Below, piece by piece: positions 34,533-49,900 of a stretch of 64,000 bases of DNA. Position 1 is the first letter of the stretch. Each line of letters opens with the position of its first letter. The notes beneath the pieces are model-generated. The model was not told the DNA's origin. It worked only from the letters and a program-made list of their open reading frames with translations, and made no database searches. Location of the stretch: contig NZ_CP024955.1 in assembly GCF_002804065.1 (NCBI RefSeq), positions 372,001 to 436,000 on the forward strand, written 5' to 3'. This stretch comes from Kyrpidia spormannii (GTDB lineage Bacteria; Bacillota; Bacilli; Kyrpidiales; Kyrpidiaceae). The position numbers were made by a program, and so were the translations under genes.

Positions 34533-35303
34533 ATGGCGCAGATTGAGGTGCGCGGTGTGTCTCACCGATATTTTACCATGAAAGAAGAAACCGAGGCTCT
34601 GCGGAATGTGAATCTTCAGGTGGAAACCGGAGAATTCGTCAGCATCGTGGGGCCGAGCGGCTGCGGGAAGAGTACACTGTTGTCACTTCTGGCTGGGATG
34701 ATCCGGCCGACCCAGGGGGAGGTGCGCCTGTTCGGCGAGCTTCTCACCGGGCCCTCCCGACGGGTGGGATATATGTTGCAAAACGACTCTTTGTTCGAAT
34801 GGCGGGACGTTCTCCACAACGTCCTCATCGGCGCCGAGGTGCGCGGGCTCGACCGGGAGCCGGCCCGGCGGCGGGCGCTGGAACTACTTGAACGCTATGG
34901 CCTCGGCGGTTTTGTCGGCCACGCGCCCAAGCAGCTATCAGGAGGGATGCGCCAGCGGGTGGCTCTCATCCGGACCCTGTTGCTCGACCCAGATATTTTG
35001 CTTCTCGATGAGCCGTTTTCGGCGCTGGATTATCAAACCCGCCTCAGTCTTGGGGATGAGGTGGCCGGTATTTTGCGCGACCAGGGAAAGACGGTGGTTT
35101 TGGTGACTCACGATATTGCCGAGGCGATCACTATGGCGGACCGCGTGGTGGTGATGTCCAGGCGGCCGGCGACGATTACCGCGGAGCACCCGGTGCGGTA
35201 CGCGGCCGGGCGGCTTCCTCCTACGGCTCTGCGAAAAGAACCGGAGTTTTCCCGGTACTTTAACCGCGTGTGGGAGGAGTTGAAAGATCATGTCCGGGTT
35301 TGA
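34533..35303 (+). CDS. ABC transporter ATPase (SsuB/ThiZ-like), 3' end inside attL
   Basis: 256 residues with Walker A GPSGCGKST, Q-loop MLQND, signature LSGGMRQRVALIRTLL, Walker B ILLLDEPFSALD and the switch His in VTHDIAE. AAGGAGGGGG precedes ATG 34533. The last 27 codons lie in the left copy of the 99-bp direct repeat, so the gene is complete. The right copy carries the same C terminus with one change (Arg to Trp, second-to-last residue). Confidence 0.92.
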   Translation: MAQIEVRGVSHRYFTMKEETEALRNVNLQVETGEFVSIVGPSGCGKSTLLSLLAGMIRPTQGEVRLFGELLTGPSRRVGYMLQNDSLFEWRDVLHNVLIGAEVRGLDREPARRRALELLERYGLGGFVGHAPKQLSGGMRQRVALIRTLLLDPDILLLDEPFSALDYQTRLSLGDEVAGILRDQGKTVVLVTHDIAEAITMADRVVVMSRRPATITAEHPVRYAAGRLPPTALRKEPEFSRYFNRVWEELKDHVRV

Positions 35304-35321
35304 GCAGTTTGGGGAGTTGGA
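35223..35321 (+). repeat. Left attachment repeat (attL)
   Basis: A 99-bp direct repeat, 98/99 identical to 43803-43901; the difference is C35295 versus T43875. It covers the ATPase 3' end, its stop, and the permease ribosome site (GGGAGG) and start (ATG 35290). Confidence 0.95.
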
Positions 35322-35403
35322 GGAAAGCGCCCCTCCTGCTCGCCTTTTTTTCGCGGCTTGGTGCTGTCAACGTCTAAGTAGGGTTGCTATTTATGTACCA
35401 TGA
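35290..35403 (+). pseudogene. Orphan permease start at attL
   Basis: A 37-codon frame created by integration. It begins with the native permease start (MSGFEQFGEL) and then runs into element sequence to a TGA at 35401. It overlaps the ATPase stop by 14 bases. Probably a junction by-product. Confidence 0.7.
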
Positions 35404-35744
35404 AAATAGACCACAGTCAACAGGGGAACAGGAGCGGTCACAACAGGGCGGCGGAATGTGATTCTTTGGCCCCTGTCGGAGGCAGAGAGTGATCGACGCT
35501 ATATATCCTGTGGATAACCTAAGAATCCGTTTTTTAGACACCACATAAAGCCACCATGCGAATTCCGAAGTATGAGCGAGAAAGAAAGAGAGATACACGG
35601 ATTTTTTGGATTTTCGTTCGAAAGCCGGATTTTATCTACGACCGAACAACCTCTAGTATAACTGTGAACATTTCCTCGGGGGTGATAGTCTCAGGTAGGA
35701 TTTCAGCCCATGCTGTCGAATTTTAGAGTTTGGGAGGTGAAAAC
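35322..35744. other. Left-end non-coding region of the element
   Basis: About 420 bases, less GC-rich than its surroundings. No gene is supported; the minus-strand frame at 35374-35598 has no ribosome site or family features. A TATAACT near 35655 may be the -10 of the Cro-like gene's promoter. Confidence 0.5.
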
Positions 35745-35990
35745 ATGACTGGACTCACGAAGCTGGAGGTCCTGCGCCGCGCCCGTGGCTGGACGCAGAC
35801 GGACGTTTCACAAATGATCGGCGTGTCGGGCGGCCTCATTTCGCACATCGAAAGGCGTGTCCGCTCGAGCTATCCCAAACTGCGCAAGGCGTTGGCGGAG
35901 CTGTACGGGGTGTCGGAATCCACCTTGTTCGACGACCTCGGCATGGCCAAGGAAGTGGACCCCGCAGGTCTCGAGCGGCTGGTGGGGTGA
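35745..35990 (+). CDS. Cro/C1-type HTH regulator of the element
   Basis: 81 residues. LEVLRRARGWTQTDVSQMIGVSGGLISHIERR is a clear Xre-family helix-turn-helix. ATG 35745 follows GGGAGGTGA. As the first gene of the rightward cluster it probably controls the replication genes. Confidence 0.88.
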   Translation: MTGLTKLEVLRRARGWTQTDVSQMIGVSGGLISHIERRVRSSYPKLRKALAELYGVSESTLFDDLGMAKEVDPAGLERLVG

Positions 35991-36044
35991 ACAAAAAACA
36001 ACCCCCGGGATGCTGGCCCGGGGACTAGGAGGATGATTGATCGC

Positions 36045-36335
36045 ATGGAAATCGTACAACTGCAAACGGACATGGCCCACCGCCGGACCAAACGCGAGGC
36101 AGTGTGGCGCTATCTCACCGACCACATGGGGGAATGGGTAGACGCCCACGTGTTCACGCATCCCTCTATCGGCGGGAGCGAAGGCCTGCGGCGGCTCAGG
36201 GAGATCCGCGCATCCCTGCCGCCTTATTGGCGCATCGAAATGAGGCGCAAGCCTGGCCCCAACGGAGAACGATTCCACGAGCGCCAATATCGCTTGGCAC
36301 GCACGGACAACCCCTCCGCCAAAGACTGCGGCTGA
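36045..36335 (+). CDS. Small winged-helix-like protein
   Basis: 96 residues. KREAVWRYLTDHMGEWVDAHVF followed by GGSEGLRRLREIR and a C-terminal ERQYRLAR strand resemble winged-helix proteins found in phages and plasmids. AGGAGG lies 12 bases before ATG 36045 (ATG 36033 abuts it). Function unknown; a DNA-binding role is inferred. Confidence 0.7.
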   Translation: MEIVQLQTDMAHRRTKREAVWRYLTDHMGEWVDAHVFTHPSIGGSEGLRRLREIRASLPPYWRIEMRRKPGPNGERFHERQYRLARTDNPSAKDCG

Positions 36336-36543
36336 GATCATCGGGCGCATCATGGCCTCCCTGTGCCTACAGGCAGGTATGGCCGTGGTGTGCCCTTGGC
36401 TTTGGGCCGGAGCACCCGCCCTTGGGCGATTTTCATGTACCACGGTGGGGCATCTAATATCACATCTAATACATTACACGAATTCGATTAGATGGTCAAC
36501 ACGAAAACGTGTATTTTGTACCCGAAAAATTGAGGTGATGATC

Positions 36544-37314
36544 ATGGCTATCACGCCCTTAACATACATCAAGCACGCCCTTTCCATCATCCCGCTCGAA
36601 CCCAAGGGCAAGCGCCCGCTCATCAGGTGGGAGCCGTTTCAGCATAAGCGCCCGACATGGGAGCAAGTCATGCGCTGGTCCCAGGATCATCCCGGGTGCA
36701 ACTGGGCGATTGTGACGGGGGCGGTCAGCGGAGTGGTGGTCCTGGACCTGGACACCCCCGAGGCCGCCCAGGAGATCAAGCAGAAAGGCGTTGAGGCCGT
36801 CGGCCCTGTGGTCAAGACCGGTAAGGGGTGGCATCTGTATTTCCGGCATCCCGGGCATCCCGTACAGAACGCCGTGAAGCTTCTCCCCGGCGTGGACGTT
36901 CGGGGTGACGGGGGGTACGTGGCGGCCCCGCCGTCCGTGCATCCAAGCGGGGCGGCGTACCAATGGGTGCGGGGGCGCTCCATCCTGGAGATCGAGCCCC
37001 CGCCTCTCCCTGAGTGGGTGGAGGAACTGCTGAACCAGCCGCAGGAGCCCGCAAGGGGTGTCAGCATCCAACTGGAGGGCATTGGCGACGACATCGAGCG
37101 CATAGCCCTTGGTGTAGGGCAAGGGGAGCGCAACCAGGCCGCCGCCCGGCTGGCCGGGTATCTGTTCTCTTTCCGCCGGATGAACCCAAACGTGGCGGCG
37201 GCTCTCTTGGAGGCATGGAACCTGACCAACCGCCCTCCCCTGCCCTTGCGGGAGCTTCACAGGACGATAAACAGCATTGCCAAACGCCAAGCGCGGAAGG
37301 AGATGGGGGCGTGA
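36544..37314 (+). CDS. Bifunctional primase-polymerase (prim-pol)
   Basis: 256 residues. The AEP-type prim-pol domain shows the catalytic VVLDLD (Asp68, Asp70), GKGWHLYF with its His (97), and GVDVRGDGGYVAAPPSVHPSG. The last 70 residues (GQGERNQAAARLAGYLF, LREL-HRTINSIAKRQ) match the helical PriCT domain. The frame is open further upstream, but GAGGTGATG precedes ATG 36544. It should prime element replication. The stop lies two bases before the next start. Confidence 0.9.
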   Translation: MAITPLTYIKHALSIIPLEPKGKRPLIRWEPFQHKRPTWEQVMRWSQDHPGCNWAIVTGAVSGVVVLDLDTPEAAQEIKQKGVEAVGPVVKTGKGWHLYFRHPGHPVQNAVKLLPGVDVRGDGGYVAAPPSVHPSGAAYQWVRGRSILEIEPPPLPEWVEELLNQPQEPARGVSIQLEGIGDDIERIALGVGQGERNQAAARLAGYLFSFRRMNPNVAAALLEAWNLTNRPPLPLRELHRTINSIAKRQARKEMGA

Positions 37315-37316
37315 AC

Positions 37317-38771
37317 ATGGACGGAAGCAACGCACTGACTGGCCTGATCGAGTTGCAGAACGCAAGGCGTCTCCGGGCGGCCCGGGAGGACTTCGCGGAC
37401 GGGACGGAACGGGCGGCGGTGCCTTTCAAGACCGAGACCGTGGAGCCGTTCCCGGTGGACGTGTTCCCTTCCTCCCTGGCCCGCTTTGTGGCCGAGGGCG
37501 CGGCGTCCCTGAACTGCCCTCCCGACTTCATCGGGGTGCCCATGCTTTCAGTGGCCGGGGCGCTCATCGGGACAAGCAACGTCATCCGCCCGAAGCCAGA
37601 CCGGACGGAGTACGCCCGTATCTGGACAATCGTGGTGGGCAACCCGGGGAGTGCGAAGACCCCGGCGCTGGAAACCGTCTTGGAACCCCTTCATTCGATC
37701 CAGGCGGAGTTAAAAGACCGCTTTGATCTTGCCGAGGCCGCTTATGAGGACGCCATGACCCGCTGGGCGCAGGACAGGAAGCAACCGAGGCCGCAACCGC
37801 CGGTGATGGAGCAGATTTACACAACGGACACCACGATTGAAGCCCTGGCTGAACTCCTGTCCCGAAACCAAAGGGGGCTGCTCATCTACCAGGAAGAGGC
37901 CGCCGGGTGGGTGTTGAGCATGAACCAGTACAAGGGCGGCAAGGGATCGGACAAGCAGAACGCCCTGTCCCTCTGGAGCGGGGCTCCCATTGTGGGAAAC
38001 CGCAAGGGGAAACAAGCCATATACGTTCCCAAGCCGTTCGTCGGCTTCACCGGCGGCATTCAGCCCGATGTCCTGGCCCAGTTGAGGAATGAGATGTCGG
38101 AGGCTGACGGCTTCATTCACCGCTTCCTGATCGTTCAGCCCGACCGGGTGCAGAAACGGAGGACGGACGCCATCCTGTCCTCCGAGGCCAAAGAGTCATG
38201 GAGCAAGGCATGCCAGGCACTCAGGGACCTTCAGCCCGCCGAGAACGGCCCCTATCCGTTCGCATTCTCTCCGGATGGACTGGAAGCATGGAACGCATGG
38301 CAAGACGACCACTACGCGGAGCAGAACACCGAGGACTTCCCGGAATATCTTGAAGGTCCCTGGGCGAAGATCGATGCATACGCCCTGCGCCTCGCCCTGG
38401 TGGTTCACCTTCTCAGGGCGGTGGCCGGAGAGATCCCGGACGACGCCGATGTAGACGCCGAGACCATGCGCCGGGTGGACAAGCTCATTCGGTACTTCAA
38501 AAGCCACGCCCGCCGAGTGTATGGCCAACTCCGGGAGACCCCCGAAGATCGCAAGGTGAGGCAGGCGGTGGCGTGGCTGGAGAAGAGAGGCGGGGAGGCG
38601 ACCATCCGTGACCTAGTACGTTACAAGGTGGCAGGGACCAAGACAGCCGACGACGCCGAAGCCCTGGCCAACCTGCTTATCAAGCGCGGCCATGCGACCA
38701 AGGTAACGGATTCGCGAACTACCAAAATTCAACTGGTAATGGAAGAGAAAGAACCTGATTCTAGTTTATAA
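37317..38771 (+). CDS. DUF3987 replication ATPase/helicase-like protein
   Basis: 484 residues. A P-loop VGNPGSAKTPALE (about 108-119), LLIYQEEAAGWVLSMNQY, SGAPIVGNRKGK and FVGFTGGIQPDVL are the conserved boxes of DUF3987 (YfjI-like) proteins, which accompany prim-pol genes in phages, satellites and integrated plasmids. A C-terminal winged helix (RKVRQAVAWLEKRGGEATIRDLV) may bind DNA. The repeat array that I take for an origin starts five bases after its stop. Confidence 0.88.
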   Translation: MDGSNALTGLIELQNARRLRAAREDFADGTERAAVPFKTETVEPFPVDVFPSSLARFVAEGAASLNCPPDFIGVPMLSVAGALIGTSNVIRPKPDRTEYARIWTIVVGNPGSAKTPALETVLEPLHSIQAELKDRFDLAEAAYEDAMTRWAQDRKQPRPQPPVMEQIYTTDTTIEALAELLSRNQRGLLIYQEEAAGWVLSMNQYKGGKGSDKQNALSLWSGAPIVGNRKGKQAIYVPKPFVGFTGGIQPDVLAQLRNEMSEADGFIHRFLIVQPDRVQKRRTDAILSSEAKESWSKACQALRDLQPAENGPYPFAFSPDGLEAWNAWQDDHYAEQNTEDFPEYLEGPWAKIDAYALRLALVVHLLRAVAGEIPDDADVDAETMRRVDKLIRYFKSHARRVYGQLRETPEDRKVRQAVAWLEKRGGEATIRDLVRYKVAGTKTADDAEALANLLIKRGHATKVTDSRTTKIQLVMEEKEPDSSL

Positions 38772-38775
38772 ATCC

Positions 38776-38985
38776 ACTCGACACTCGACACAAGCCCGAT
38801 TTTCTCAGTCATATCAAGGGATTAGAGGCGATTTACGTACTCGACAAATCACTCGACACTACTCGACACTTTACCAATAAATGTTAGGAACTGTCGAGTA
38901 GTGTCGACTTAAGTGTCGAGTGCAAAAAAAAGGCCGAAACCCCTTGTGGCACAAGGCATTAAAGGCTATGTGTCGAGTGTCGAGT
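38776..38985. repeat. Mirror-symmetric array of ten ACTCGACA/TGTCGAGT boxes, candidate replication origin
   Basis: Forward ACTCGACA starts at 38776, 38783, 38839, 38851 and 38861. Inverse TGTCGAGT starts at 38892, 38914, 38971 and 38978, plus a variant TGTCGACT at 38902. The outer pairs overlap into perfect 15-bp inverted copies (38776-38790, 38971-38985), and all pairs are symmetric about 38880 to within one base. An AT-rich core (38869-38891) sits in the centre. A small hairpin (CCTTGT/ACAAGG, 38943-38957) lies in the right arm. Confidence 0.9.
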
Positions 38986-39050
38986 AAGAAAATGAATGAG
39001 AGCCCAAAGGTGCTGGAAATTCATCCATGATGGAGGGGGAGGTTATCCCG

Positions 39051-39458
39051 ATGGACAAGCCCAAGCGGTTGGCCCCGATGAAGACCATTCATGAGATCGA
39101 GCTTCCCGAGAAGTCTAAAGCAATCCCCACGGGCAAGCCCAAGCGACTGGCTCCCTTAAAGACGATCTATGACCTCGGGTACCAGGAGGGGAGCCACCAA
39201 GAGGCAAGCCTGCCCCCGGCTTTGGTGCCCATGGAGCCCGCTGTGGCCTCACAGGAGCCCGTGAAGGCCCCCGCCTATGTGGTCACTGCGGACGGCTCCC
39301 CGGTGGCCTCCCTGGGGAGCATGGCGGAGGCCCTGGAGGCCCTGGCCGCCGTCGTCCGCTCCACTCCCTCGCGCCCTGGCCATACGGTGCGGATCGAGAT
39401 TCGGGACGCCGCCGGGAAGCCCCTGCGAATCTGCTATCTGCCGCGTGGCAGGGGGTGA
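39051..39458 (+). CDS. Element protein with duplicated KPKRLAP-x-KTI motif
   Basis: 135 residues, not recognised. The first 45 residues contain the same basic motif twice (KPKRLAPMKTIHEI and KPKRLAPLKTIYDL). A proline-rich linker then leads to a domain with ALEALAAVVRSTPSRPGH and VRIEIRDAAGKPLRICYL. ATG 39051 lies eight bases after a long GGAGGGGGAGG site. Likely a small DNA- or protein-binding accessory factor, by inference. Confidence 0.7.
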   Translation: MDKPKRLAPMKTIHEIELPEKSKAIPTGKPKRLAPLKTIYDLGYQEGSHQEASLPPALVPMEPAVASQEPVKAPAYVVTADGSPVASLGSMAEALEALAAVVRSTPSRPGHTVRIEIRDAAGKPLRICYLPRGRG

Positions 39459-39930: not shown

Positions 39931-40009
39931 AGGGTGCTGACACTGGCAGTACCATTGCGGTGGCTTCAGTTGAACTGAACCCCTACCAGGGGTGGCGGAG
40001 GTGGACCAC

Positions 40010-40432
40010 GTGACCAAAGCGGACAGAAGCCGACAACTGAGCATTGAGCAACTGAACGCGATTGACATGCTGGTGCAGGGCAAGAGCGACCGGGAGGTTG
40101 CCGAGGCCGTCGGTGTGGCCCGGCAGACCGTGACGGAGTGGAGGAACCGCAATCCCGCGTTCATGGCGGAACTGAACCGACGGCGGCAGGAGGTATGGGG
40201 CGCTCAGGCCGAGAGGCTCAGGCACTTGGTGGCCCGCGCCGTGGACGTGCTGGAGCAGGACCTTGAGCAGACCGATGACCCGAAGCTTCGGCAGTCGGCG
40301 GCGGTGCACATCCTGCGGTGCGTTGGTTTGTACGGTGCCAACCTGGAGCCGACCGGCCCGACGGACCCCGAGGACATCGAAAGGCGAGAGGCGGAAGACC
40401 GGCTTATTCGCGACATCCTGCGGGTGGGGTGA
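40010..40432 (+). CDS. Terminase-small-subunit-like / phBC6A51-type HTH protein
   Basis: 140 residues. LSIEQLNAIDMLVQGKSDREVAEAVGVARQTVTEWRNRNPAFMAELN is a helix-turn-helix as in phage small terminases and the phBC6A51 family. A helical stretch (LRHLVARAVDVLEQDLEQ, LRQSAAVHILRCVGLYG) follows. GTG 40010 is seven bases after GGAGGT. No large terminase gene is present, so it may redirect a helper phage's packaging, or simply be a DNA-binding regulator. Confidence 0.75.
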   Translation: MTKADRSRQLSIEQLNAIDMLVQGKSDREVAEAVGVARQTVTEWRNRNPAFMAELNRRRQEVWGAQAERLRHLVARAVDVLEQDLEQTDDPKLRQSAAVHILRCVGLYGANLEPTGPTDPEDIERREAEDRLIRDILRVG

Positions 40433-40630: not shown

Positions 40631-41062
40631 ATGAAGCTGGCGAAGGAGAAGCGGCGGGAGATTGTCAGGGCCCTGAAGTTGTACCGTTTGTATGTGCAGG
40701 CGGGCGTCCATCCGGGGTACGAGCCACGAATCACGCCCGCTTATTCCCTGGCCCCCAGCGGAGAGACGAACGTTGTGCAGGATTCGACCGGCGACACTGC
40801 CCAGCGCAACACAGACGGCGAGCGCGAACGCCGGGAGCACGTGGAGAGGGTGCACCGGGCCCTTGAAGCGCTCAAGCCGATGGAGCGGCGGATCATCGAA
40901 TGCGCGTATTTCCGGGACATGACGACGATTGAGATCTGCGAGGAACTGGCGATCTGCGAACGAACCGCCCACCGGACGAAGGCTACCGCCCTGGTGAAGC
41001 TGGCCATTGTGTTTGGTCTCCTGACCCCGGAGGAAGAGCGGGAGGCGGCGGAGGTGCTGTAA
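40631..41062 (+). CDS. ArpU/sigma-region-4-like transcription factor
   Basis: 143 residues. The C-terminal half, LKPMERRIIECAYFRDMTTIEICEELAICERTAHRTKATALVKLA, resembles sigma region 4 or ArpU-type phage late regulators (YFRDMTTIEI-C, helix-turn-helix). The N-terminal half is basic, then polar. A G-rich site precedes ATG 40631. In phages and satellites such genes switch on late or packaging functions. Confidence 0.75.
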   Translation: MKLAKEKRREIVRALKLYRLYVQAGVHPGYEPRITPAYSLAPSGETNVVQDSTGDTAQRNTDGERERREHVERVHRALEALKPMERRIIECAYFRDMTTIEICEELAICERTAHRTKATALVKLAIVFGLLTPEEEREAAEVL

Positions 41063-42783: not shown

Positions 42784-43701
42784 TCACTTCACCTTCCTCG
42801 CCCGGGTGCGCTGGGGCAGGAGGTTGGCCACGGGGGACGCGACGGCGTGCTGTTCGTGGAGATCGGCATCGGCCAGGGCGATGTAGCGCCGCGTCATGGT
42901 GATATCGGCGTGTCCCAGCTGGCGCTGGAGGGCGAAGACATGGCCGCCCCCCCGCAAGAACATGACGGCAGAACTGTGGCGAAGCATGTACGGCGTGACT
43001 CGGGCACCGAGCTTGCGCCCATATTGGCGCATTATTCGCGACCAGCTTTCCTCTGCCAACTTGCGGCCAGAGGCGGAGGCAAAGACGGGGACGCTGTCAT
43101 CCCAGTCGGCTGGGCGGACACTTAGAAGCTTGCGAATGGCCTTCGCTGTCTGCGGACTGATGACGACCGTCCTGGAGACTCGCGCCTTAGCCACATGGGC
43201 AGGTATGGTAATTTCCAGTGAGGCAAGGTTCAGGTCTCGCGGCGTTAGCTGAAGCGCCTCACCTGGGCGCACTCCGCTGTCCAACTGAAACAGCATCAAA
43301 GCGTAGTCCCGGACCCCCACGAAAGCGCTCTGGTTTGGCAATCTCAGGAGCTTCGATAGGATGTCATCGGGCAGGTGACGTGGCGTTTGATCCTCGCGGC
43401 GTTGCTTGATCCCCTTGGTCGGATTCCCAGAGACAAGCCCTTCGTCGGCGGCCCAATTGAAAAACGAGCGCAACACTCGAAGCTGTTGGTTATGATAGCT
43501 GGCGGCTAACCCCCGGATGTCCGTGAAGTGTTGCAGGACGGCCCGACGGAGGCGGTCGGCGTCCGGCCAGGCGCTCTGAGCTTCGGGGCGGCGGAAAAAG
43601 GCCCCGACAATTCTCCGATAGTCCCGAACGGTGTAATGTGACCGCCCTTCGGCTCGCTTGAATAGGATGAATGTCGAGAGCGATTCTTGCCATGTCTGCA
43701 T
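42784..43701 (-). CDS. int: Tyrosine-family site-specific integrase
   Basis: 305 residues. A SAM-like N-terminal core-binding domain (STFILFKRAEGRSHYTVRDYRRIVG...) precedes the catalytic domain with Arg in DSGVRPGEALQL, MLRHSSAVMFL (HxxR region), LGHADITMTRRYI (His and nucleophile Tyr). ATG 43701 is seven bases after AGGAGGG; the frame is open 15 codons further. The gene ends the element beside attR and heads a five-gene minus-strand operon. Confidence 0.93.
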   Translation of the reverse strand: MQTWQESLSTFILFKRAEGRSHYTVRDYRRIVGAFFRRPEAQSAWPDADRLRRAVLQHFTDIRGLAASYHNQQLRVLRSFFNWAADEGLVSGNPTKGIKQRREDQTPRHLPDDILSKLLRLPNQSAFVGVRDYALMLFQLDSGVRPGEALQLTPRDLNLASLEITIPAHVAKARVSRTVVISPQTAKAIRKLLSVRPADWDDSVPVFASASGRKLAEESWSRIMRQYGRKLGARVTPYMLRHSSAVMFLRGGGHVFALQRQLGHADITMTRRYIALADADLHEQHAVASPVANLLPQRTRARKVK

Positions 43702-43802
43702 GCAGGTCCCTCCTAACGGCTTGTGTACTGCGTCAACAGCGTCCAAGTACCGGCGAAAAAAGTCCGGACCCCAGCGAGGCGGCAGGCCCGGGAATCCAAG
43801 GC

Positions 43803-43901
43803 ACGGCTCTGCGAAAAGAACCGGAGTTTTCCCGGTACTTTAACCGCGTGTGGGAGGAGTTGAAAGATCATGTCTGGGTTTGAGCAGTTTGGGGAGTTGG
43901 A
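43803..43901 (+). repeat. Right attachment repeat (attR)
   Basis: Partner of 35223-35321, one mismatch (T43875). It supplies the permease with its ribosome site and start and carries a spare copy of the ATPase C terminus ending DHVWV. Confidence 0.95.
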
Positions 43902-44748
43902 TGAAAAAGGATGGGGCGGGATGGCGGAGAATCCGGCGGCGACCCGGGCTGTGCCCAGTGCGGCCTATCGGGCTTACCTGCGGTGGCAACGGGGACGAAT
44001 TCGCCGCATCCGAGCGGGGCGGTGGCTGCTGCTCCTGGTGGTGCTGGGGATTTGGGAGCTTGCGGCCAGGCTGCACTGGGTCGATCCCATGTTGACCAGC
44101 ATGCCGTCCCAGATCGCCACCAGTTTCTGTGCCTTGGCCGGGCAGGGGCAAATCGGTTATCACACCTGGGTGACGGTCCAGGAGACACTGGGGGGATTCG
44201 TCTTGTCCATGGCGGTGGGCGGGTTGGCCGCAGTGGTCCTGTGGTGGTCTTCGTTCCTCTCCAAGGTGCTGGAGCCGTACCTCGTCGTCCTCAATGCACT
44301 GCCCAAAGTGGCAATGGGGCCGATTTTTTATATTTGGCTGGGGGACCGAAATTCTATCTATGGGATGGCGGTGGCCATTTCCATTGTGGTGACGGTCCTG
44401 ATGCTGGAGTCCGGCTTCCGGGAGGCCGGCCGGGACAAATTGAAGTTGATGGAGTCCCTGGGGGCAACGAGATGGCAGATGTTCAAGCTCGTCGTCCTCC
44501 CGGCTTCGGTTCCCAGTCTGGTGGCGACCATGAAGGTCAACATCGGGTTGACGTTGGTCGGCGTGATCATGGGGGAGTTCCTCTCTTCCAAGGCGGGGCT
44601 CGGGTTCCTGATTCTCTATGGCGGCCAAGTGTTCCAAATGAATCTCGTGATGACCAGCATTGCGCTTCTGGTCATCGTCTCCATCGTGTTGTATGGCCTG
44701 ATTGTTGTGGCGGGGCGTCTGCTGCAGAAGCGATACCGTTTTGAGTGA
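43870..44748 (+). CDS. ABC transporter permease (SsuC/ThiX-like), start inside attR
   Basis: 292 residues with about six membrane segments. The cytoplasmic EAA loop is ESLGATRWQMFKLVVLPASVPSLVATMKVNIGLT. The first 11 residues lie in attR. It belongs with the binding protein and ATPase at 33.3-35.3 kb. After integration it must be transcribed from inside the element or from a new promoter. Confidence 0.9.
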   Translation: MSGFEQFGELDEKGWGGMAENPAATRAVPSAAYRAYLRWQRGRIRRIRAGRWLLLLVVLGIWELAARLHWVDPMLTSMPSQIATSFCALAGQGQIGYHTWVTVQETLGGFVLSMAVGGLAAVVLWWSSFLSKVLEPYLVVLNALPKVAMGPIFYIWLGDRNSIYGMAVAISIVVTVLMLESGFREAGRDKLKLMESLGATRWQMFKLVVLPASVPSLVATMKVNIGLTLVGVIMGEFLSSKAGLGFLILYGGQVFQMNLVMTSIALLVIVSIVLYGLIVVAGRLLQKRYRFE

Positions 44749-46954: not shown

Positions 46955-49900
46955 ATGGGGCGTTGGAGGAGGCGGGCGGTGGCCGCGGTGTTGGGGACGG
47001 GGTTGATCGCCGCGGGTGCAGCGGGCGGAGAGGTGGAAGCGGCCGGGGCAGATACCGCAAGTTCCCCCAGGGGAGCTGTGGCGGGTGCCGGAGCGGCGCC
47101 GGTGTCTGAAACGGCGGTGCCAACCGGTGCACCGGCGAGGGATACTTCGCCCGGGCAGGAGCCGGAAGCGGCCAAGGTTTTGGCGGAATTGCACGTCGAT
47201 GTCACCGGGGACGATTTCCCGGATACCGTGGATCTGATGGGCCGGCCCCTCATGGCCGGGAGCCCCATGCTGGGCGATTTTGTCCTGACGATGACCCACG
47301 GGGTGGGGGGCACGAAAATCATCCTGCCCCTGGGTCCGAAAAATTTTGTCGGCCTGGAGCCCGTCTTGTATCCAGTGGACATTCCAGGGCAGCGGGGTTC
47401 CGGAGTTCTCGTTTCTAGTGCGCCCGGCATGGGCGTTGACTGGGTGGTGAAAGTCCACTGCAGGCGAGGCAGCACGAGTCTGCTAGCCAAAGGCAAGGGT
47501 GTCCATCGTGAGGTGGGATCCGAAGGAAGCTGGAGGCAAACCCACGGCCCGATGAACAAGAACCTCATACGAGGCTACGCCGTTCGGATGAGCTGGCAAG
47601 ACACAGCGAAATCCAAAGGCTGCCAAAGGGCGGCGGAGTATATGAGGCGGGCGCGGGGGGAAGGTCAACGCTCTTACCCGGGGAGGCCTGCCGGATACGC
47701 CAGGGGACTGGCAACCCGGATCGAGAGGTTCGGTTGAACCGGCAGGAGTCAGCAGAGGGCATAGTACCCAGGAGGTCATGAACTCCGGGGGAAGGCCCGA
47801 ACATCAAGACAGAGGTGAAACCGGTGCGTTCGCGAGAAGGACGAAGACAGCCGAAAACCCTGAACAGGGACTACCCACGGGAGGAAGTGGTGAAGCCACG
47901 GGGGACCGTGGGAGAGCCGAGCCCTTCTCCGGCACAAAGCGGAGCTTCACCTCGCGGAGAACAAGGTGACGGCCTGATGGAGAAGGTGGTGGCCAGGCAG
48001 AACATGCTGGCCGCCCTGAAGCGGGTGGAGCAGAACAAGGGTGCCCCCGGCGTGGACGGCATTCCCACGGAAAACCTCCGGGAACAGATCCGAGCCGAGT
48101 GGCCGCGCATCCGGGAAGAGCTGCTCACGGGGATCTACCGACCGCAGCCCGTGCGCCGGGTCGAAATCCCGAAACCCGGGGGAGGCAAGCGGATGCTGGG
48201 GATCCCCACCGTGATGGACCGCCTGATCCAGCAGGCACTTCTGCAGGTGCTGACGCCCATCTTTGACCCGCAATTTTCGGAGGCCAGCTACGGGTTCCGA
48301 CCCGGAAGAAGGGCACACGAGGCGGTCAAGAAGGCGAGGCAGTATGTGGAAGAAGGATACGAATGGGCCGTGGACATGGACCTGGAAAAGTTCTTTGACC
48401 GAGTGAATCATGACATCCTGATGGCCCGGGTAGCCCGGAGGGTCACGGACAAACGAGTGCTCAAGGTCATTCGCCGGTACCTCCAGGCAGGGATCATGGT
48501 GAACGGAGTGGTCATGGAAAGAGAGGAAGGGACACCACAGGGCGGGCCGCTGAGTCCCCTGTTGGCGAATATCCTTCTGGATGACCTGGACAAAGAACTG
48601 GAAAAGAGAGGTCACAAGTTCGTCCGGTATGCGGATGATGCTAACATCTACGTTCGAAGCAAACGGGCGGGGGAGAGAGTCCTGGCCAGTGTCCGGACAT
48701 TCCTGCAGGAGCGGCTAAGACTCAAACTCAACGAGCAGAAGAGCACGGTGGACCGACCGTGGAAACTGAAGTTTCTGGGATTCAGCATGTACAAACGCAA
48801 AGCCGGGGAAATCCGCATTCGCTTGGCCAGACAGTCGATCGAGCGGGTCAAGGCCAAGATCCGAACCCTCACGGCGAGGAACACACCGATCGCCATGGAG
48901 GAACGCATCCGGCGGCTGAACACGTATCTGGGCGGATGGATGGGATACTTTGCCCTGGCGGAGACGCCGAGCACCTTCGAAGAAATCGAAGGATGGATCC
49001 GGCGGAGGCTGCGGATGTGTCTCTGGAAACAGTGGAAACGGGTACGGACGCGATACCGTGAACTGCGCGCGCTAGGGCTGCCGGAGTGGGTCGTTCATCA
49101 ATTTGCCAATGCCCGCAAAGGACCGTGGCGGATGGCCCATGGGCCGATGAATCGAGCCTTGGGGAACGCCTATTGGCAGGCCCAAGGACTCATGAGCTTA
49201 ACCGAACGTTACCGAAGGCTTCGTCAATCTTGGTGAACCGCCGGATGCGGACCCGCATGTCCGGTGGTGTGAGAGGACGGGGGCTAGCCGCCCCCTCCTA
49301 CTCGATTTGGAAACGGGGGCAGTGGAGGCACCCGGACGAGCCTTCTCGTGTCCTTTGCGGAGGGCGTCGCCCGGGAGGTGGTTCCCAGGGAGGAACTGAA
49401 TGCGGGACTGCAGGCGAAAATTGAGTATCTGGACGGCTTCAAGGCGCGGCTCACAGAGCCCCGAACCGGCCGATCGGTCACCCTTGACCTCCGGGACCGC
49501 AAAACCGATTACCTTCGGTTGGGGATTTTCGACCAAAATGGCAAATTGCTGAAGCCGGTGTCGGGGTTTGTGGATGGATACAGCGTCTTCGTGCCGGCGC
49601 GGCAGCCGGATGGACACCAAGTTTTTGAGGGCAGGCAGACGCTCTCCGGCGCCTACCGTTCCGACGGTTTGGCGGTGTTGTCCTCCACCTGGGCCCTCCA
49701 AGACGGCAAGCTCGAACTGCGGGATGTCCGGTTTTTGACGGTGGGCCCGAAAGCTGCGGCGGCGGACCCCTCCCTGGACAACCAGCCCGCTCCAAAGTAT
49801 CCGGTGGGAAGCGAATTTTCTGAGCCCGGCACGTGGCCTCCCGAGACGATCCTGGATTCCCGCTACGCCGACATGGATGGAGACGGGGTGCGGGATTCTG

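Follow-up and report, generated by a model that had tools for sequence, protein, structure and literature searches.

What is the function of ten copies of an 8-bp box, arranged in two opposed sets within 210 bases of Kyrpidia spormannii DNA? The boxes lie in a stretch of 64,000 nucleotides, referred to here as the window, and an earlier note, made from the letters alone, took them for a candidate replication origin. The description given there is borne out by the box positions: nine exact ACTCGACA boxes and one variant, TGTCGACT, occupy 38776-38985, five on each strand. The midpoints of the five pairs fall at 38880.5, 38880.5, 38880.0, 38880.0 and 38880.0, so that the pairs are equidistant from 38880 to within one base, as claimed, and the outermost pairs are indeed overlapping doublets with an offset of 7 bp. 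The first box starts 5 nt past the stop codon of a DUF3987 gene (end 38771), i.e., with four bases between, in agreement with the distance noted before. The centre had been called AT-rich, and the core between the innermost boxes, though short (23 nt), is 70% A+T; the arms reach 54-55%, and the final kb of the DUF3987 gene 40%. The coordinates are collected in Table 1.

The array stands out against its surroundings. Exact ACTCGACA is present 11 times in the 64-kb window against 1.2 expected (maximum of 4 in 100 shuffles), and a scan of the same 64 kb for at least six copies of any 7-mer per 500 nt returned only windows covering the ACTCGACA array. Paired ACTCGACA boxes are found nowhere outside the array in the whole 3.35-Mb genome. 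When the gaps are shuffled and the strands kept, 0.55% of trials produce five mirror pairs. The array region, taken as single-stranded DNA, folds far above shuffles (z -9.8), which is a consequence of the mirrored boxes. A short inverted repeat, CCTTGTGgCACAAGG, is also seen in the right arm (38931-38959), with a similar copy at the corresponding position of G001, a sister genome, and a partial one in locus L056.

Table 1. Features of the integrated element and of its box array (positions in the window).
Feature	Position	Strand	Remarks
Left attachment repeat	35250..35326	+	77 bp, 97% to right copy
XRE/Cro-type regulator	35730..35990	+	Pfam HTH_31 3.7e-9
Small protein, "winged-helix" of the earlier note	36033..36335	+	no Pfam or PHROG match
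PrimPol + PriCT_1 primase	36541..37314	+	PF09250 1.5e-35, PF08708 3.5e-11
DUF3987, putative initiator helicase	37314..38771	+	PF13148 7e-66; PHROG 'DNA helicase' 1.7e-32
Boxes on the + strand	start 38776, 38783, 38839, 38851, 38861	+	
Left outer doublet	38776..38790	+	boxes 38776-38783, 38783-38790
Constant motif CAGTCATATCAAGGG, left arm	38806..38820	+	identical in L007, whose box differs
Left inner boxes	38839..38868	+	boxes 38839, 38851, 38861
AT-rich core, candidate melting site	38869..38891	.	23 nt; dyad centre 38880
Right inner boxes	38892..38921	-	boxes 38892, 38902 (variant), 38914
Variant box TGTCGACT	38902-38909	-	
Boxes on the - strand	start 38892, 38902, 38914, 38971, 38978	-	
Right outer doublet	38971..38985	-	boxes 38971-38978, 38978-38985
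Small terminase subunit-like (TerS-like) protein	39992..40432	+	PHROG terminase small subunit 1.8e-11
ArpU-family late regulator	40631..41062	+	TIGR01637 above cut-off
Tyrosine integrase	42784..43746	-	PF00589 1.5e-25
Right attachment repeat	43830..43906	+	repeat spacing 8,580 bp = element length

The array belongs to an integrated element of 8,580 bp that is bounded by 77-bp direct repeats, 97% alike. At the same transporter locus, G001 carries an empty site with a single copy of the repeat, at which the two window flanks overlap by exactly 77 bp; therefore, the insertion point lies between a gene for an ABC-transporter ATPase and its neighbour. Pfam places a PrimPol + PriCT_1 gene directly before the DUF3987 gene, consistent with the prim-pol module recognized in the earlier note. 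Four small ORFs of the element have no matches, and neither a capsid nor a portal gene is present among the element genes scanned; the gene set is therefore that of a phage satellite. Integrase, attachment site, primase-helicase-array and TerS are combined in one small element, with no structural genes among those scanned, and this is the combination, TerS being a frequent member, by which a PICI is recognized. A satellite lifestyle dependent on a helper phage would be consistent with these genes. A DUF3987 relative of 91% identity is found in a Kyrpidia MAG, and G002, of the same genus, has a match equal to it in identity and extent. We also note that the gene after the array opens with two copies of a 55-nt repeat (39045-39177), 75% alike, encoding KPKRLAPxKTI, and that downstream of the element an ORF at 47815-49236, judged from its translation only, encodes a reverse transcriptase of the group II intron type.

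The AlphaFold2 model of the DUF3987 protein, built with 13 sequences (mean pLDDT 86), has an AAA+ core (residues ~49-401) followed by a winged helix at the C-terminus (410-474). Searching the PDB by sequence gave no relative of this protein. In a fold search, MCM helicases score best among solved structures, led by 6mii_B (Z 17.9; 269 residues aligned with an rmsd of 3.7 Å), and all of the 50 matches listed are MCM proteins. The predicted core groups with MCM-type AAA+ helicases and suggests a putative helicase, a role that was predicted for DUF3987 from context by Kazlauskas et al. (PMC5862659).

The earlier note had suggested a search for the same layout beside other DUF3987 genes. Relatives were taken from viral contigs, genome contigs, Bacilli genomes and plasmids, giving 35 loci, and an array was called where a 7-mer is repeated above shuffles within the 500 nt that surround the DUF3987 stop codon. 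A significant array is present at 27 of the 35 stop codons (other Bacillota, viral contigs and one plasmid), usually in a mirror-symmetric layout; 500-nt windows drawn at random from these loci contain five copies in 3-6% of cases, and this background rate still counts the arrays. The box words differ among elements and include ACTCGACA, ACTCTGCA, CGATTGCA, CAACACAA, ACCCGACA, GTGACAA, AAACTGT, GCAACCA and others. Mirror symmetry is individually significant at P<0.05 for 13 of 22 arrays, and the combined Fisher P is 3e-15 with related arrays treated as independent. Judged by sequence, arrays beside DUF3987 are a conserved class in which two-sided symmetry, previously thought unusual, is instead the rule. 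Many of the relatives possess an AT-rich core of 65-92 nt (69-85% A+T), in comparison with which the Kyrpidia core is much shorter.

A clear array is absent from 8 of the 35 loci. These include L023 (Alicyclobacillaceae I2511), in which no array is detectable after the DUF3987 gene and the PrimPol-DUF3987 pair is 42-43% identical to that of the window. The DUF3987 gene yfjI of E. coli K-12 CP4-57 (L117), taken as a family-wide control, is likewise followed by no box array, and among further plasmid DUF3987 loci from cyanobacteria, alphaproteobacteria and Bacteroides, a repeated box is present only in Geminocystis pGM03, where symmetry is not clear. Priestia megaterium plasmid p3 (L077) is a natural plasmid of 16.9 kb with DUF3987 and a box array. 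No known Rep family is found among its seven proteins scanned, and the plasmid may offer a natural test of DUF3987 as the sole initiator.

Mirror positions could be obtained in one step by inverted duplication, in which case the symmetry would be a mere relic and the boxes of one side alone would matter. We consider this very unlikely: the arms have no clear complementarity outside the boxes, yet the spacings of L004, whose DUF3987 protein is 57% identical, are kept to 1-2 bp (pair distances of 32/54/76/188/202 vs 32/52/76/189/203 in the window), and box words have been replaced on both sides together.

A comparison of closely related elements indicates which protein may read the box. Between G001 and the window, the DUF3987 core is 93% identical and the C-terminal ~75 residues 60%; the G001 boxes are ACTCTGCA at places matching the window boxes (a few copies are imperfect), with the arm stretches between boxes unchanged. 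G559 and G001, with 69% identity in the core and 72% in the tail, have the same ACTCTGCA box. Boxes also differ in the pairs L005/L052 (core 90%, tail 53%) and L007/L008 (core 81%, tail 62%), and L017/L059 (core 73%, tail 86%) share one box. In a sample of 18 elements, some of them related, box similarity correlates with tail identity at r 0.70-0.76 (best 20-residue windows, 426-480) vs a median r of 0.08 and a maximum of 0.46 for core windows, both restricted to pairs whose cores are at least 60% identical; the test of same-box against different-box pairs gives P 0.024. Over all pairs, the effect is weak and no more than borderline (global Mantel test, partial r 0.18, P 0.05), which would follow from convergence, chance or reuse of boxes among distant proteins. 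Identity of the whole protein was rejected as a predictor of the box, r being about 0. The box thus seems to follow the winged helix of DUF3987, while the rest of the protein does not.

The earlier note named the DUF3987, winged-helix and Cro-like proteins as possible binders. No counterpart of the small protein encoded at 36033 was found in the G559 element, the array of which is similar, and the XRE protein is 81% identical between the window and G001 elements. The covariation of tail and box, along with the small protein not being found in G559, makes the DUF3987 tail the best candidate reader, even though XRE also differs. The reader of the box is apparently the C-terminal winged helix of DUF3987, and that part of the proposal stands; a separate winged-helix or Cro-like gene product is less likely. 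The same data bear on the possibility that the array is an operator, to which the XRE or the small putative winged-helix protein binds to control downstream transcription. Multi-box operators exist, the array sits between two genes, and the difference in XRE would suit this explanation as well; nevertheless, the array stays with DUF3987 in G559 and in widely differing gene neighbourhoods, the box word tracks the DUF3987 winged helix, and an operator would not usually comprise ten boxes split into mirror halves by an AT-rich core; we therefore regard this explanation as unlikely. Repeated boxes are typical also of centromere-like sites and copy-control iterons. A partition (parS-like) or incompatibility/copy-number array, with the origin proper elsewhere, is nonetheless highly improbable, as ParA/ParB are absent among the element genes examined and the array both adjoins and covaries with a helicase gene.

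By analogy, the closest known kind of site is the SaPI/PICI origin. In SaPIs and PICIs, an AT-rich region with one iteron set on either side directly follows the initiator-helicase gene at its 3' end, the C-terminal domain of the initiator recognises the origin, and the primase adjoins the helicase (PMC6092414, PMC7581432). As in those elements (Rep/Pri-Rep, e.g., SaPIbov1, EcCICFT073), the Kyrpidia array is immediately 3' of the DUF3987 gene and places 5+5 boxes on either side of its AT-rich, if short, core; in contrast, the putative initiator is a DUF3987 protein, and PrimPol is encoded separately. Neither base-pair-exact mirror placement nor coevolution of box and winged helix is described in the available portions of the SaPI/PICI literature. 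The proposal of a replication origin is supported at the sequence level by DUF3987 linkage, box/winged-helix covariation and this SaPI/PICI-like layout. Mirror arrays of the same type accompany some Bacilli loci (L092, L093, L096) of DUF927, the family to which SaPIbov1 Rep/Cch belongs, and a profile comparison of DUF3987 with DUF927, in which the alignments are shallow, detected no homology. The origin of SCCmec Cch2 (D5-type) has AAGTG iterons just downstream of a self-loading helicase, the C-terminal domain of which binds them (PMC7581432), but the iterons are three and direct in contrast to the ten mirror-placed boxes here. Origins of the MCM/SV40 large T type resemble the present case in the predicted MCM-fold AAA+ core and in a two-sided site with possible room for a pair of hexamers. 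Loading of MCM2-7 depends on ORC/Cdc6, and iterons are not involved. Judging by the length of its model, the DUF3987 protein of the element also differs in lacking the MCM N-terminal tier. The PrimPol-helicase proteins of the PrimPol-PV1 supergroup are composed of the same domain families (PMC5862659), and the available text of that work names no origin or box for DUF3987.

Many such arrays contain a constant motif, CCAGTCATAYCAAGGG, in addition to the box. Its copy in the left arm, CAGTCATATCAAGGG, has one mismatch in L008 and L010, and in the DUF3987 loci carrying the motif it falls inside the array. Written as AAACCCAGTCATAYCAAGGGWTT, the motif is seen in the window (38806-38820), in L007, L008 and L010, and in L118-L330, in part within the arms of box arrays that adjoin several helicase families. 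A blind scan of viral contigs returned at least 120 stretches each for CCAGTNATAYCAAGGG and CCCAGTCATAYCAAGGG, against 3 for the reversed CCC pattern. Among the matches listed, 30 of 123 distinct contexts contain five or more equal 7-mers in an array, and the adjoining genes are of the D5-type, VapE-type, DUF3987, AAA_25/PriCT_2, T7-type primase-helicase and DnaG-like kinds. A common plan per half, with outer boxes, one reversed box and two inner boxes, is observed in L269, L312, L194 and L096; other arrays in the same symmetry test, both VapE-type ones included, did not reach significance. Copies of the motif that have no array also exist, some of them beside T7-type terminase genes, and the 14 matches in Bacilli genomes (vs 1 for the reversed pattern) are without arrays. 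A stem-loop was considered for the array-associated copies and rejected, the flanking bases having no covariation beyond base composition, and Rfam gave a single match (RatA, L184), far from the array. No literature description of the motif in an array setting was found.

It is conceivable, though somewhat short of probable, that these sites share one architecture across phages, satellites and plasmids, comprising mirror halves of ~6 boxes, an AT-rich core and a fixed geometry, often with CCAGTCATAYCAAGGG, and seating one hexamer per half. The initiators would include DUF3987, DUF927, D5-type, DnaG-like and perhaps VapE-type proteins, and the boxes would lie at set distances from the centre, with three outer ones at ~120-146 bp, a reversed one at ~100 bp and two inner ones at ~46-67 bp. 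The box word would be exchangeable and co-evolve with the winged helix, and the motif would be read by a factor common to all. If true, this would constitute a bacterial counterpart of head-to-head double-hexamer loading.

For the Kyrpidia locus itself, we consider it very likely that the array is the replication origin of the 8.6-kb satellite-like element, with the boxes bound by the DUF3987 winged helix and two hexamers facing each other. We infer the binding, the number of hexamers, their head-to-head loading and the origin activity from the array and its symmetry, the conservation beside DUF3987, the covariation of box and winged helix, the MCM-like predicted fold and the att sites. DUF3987 hexamers would assemble on the two box sets via their winged helices, one self-loading hexamer per array half of five or six boxes. 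The mirror layout would set them head to head across the short AT-rich centre, which they would melt before departing in opposite directions, and the neighbouring PrimPol would make the primers.

The sequence comparisons point to three novelties, namely symmetric origins for DUF3987, coevolution of box and winged helix, and the constant motif in many arrays; relative to SaPI/PICI origins, the putative DUF3987 initiator, the short core and the sequence evidence for coevolution of box and tail appear new. DUF3987, a family still of unknown function by name, gains a putative role as an origin-binding helicase, and its tail a probable and readable DNA target in the 8-bp box just downstream of its own gene. 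Natural pairs of elements with swapped tails and swapped boxes provide a ready domain-swap test of how an initiator recognizes its origin, and a dyad this strict, with five to six boxes on each side, would allow double-hexamer loading to be tested in a bacterial system that is simple.
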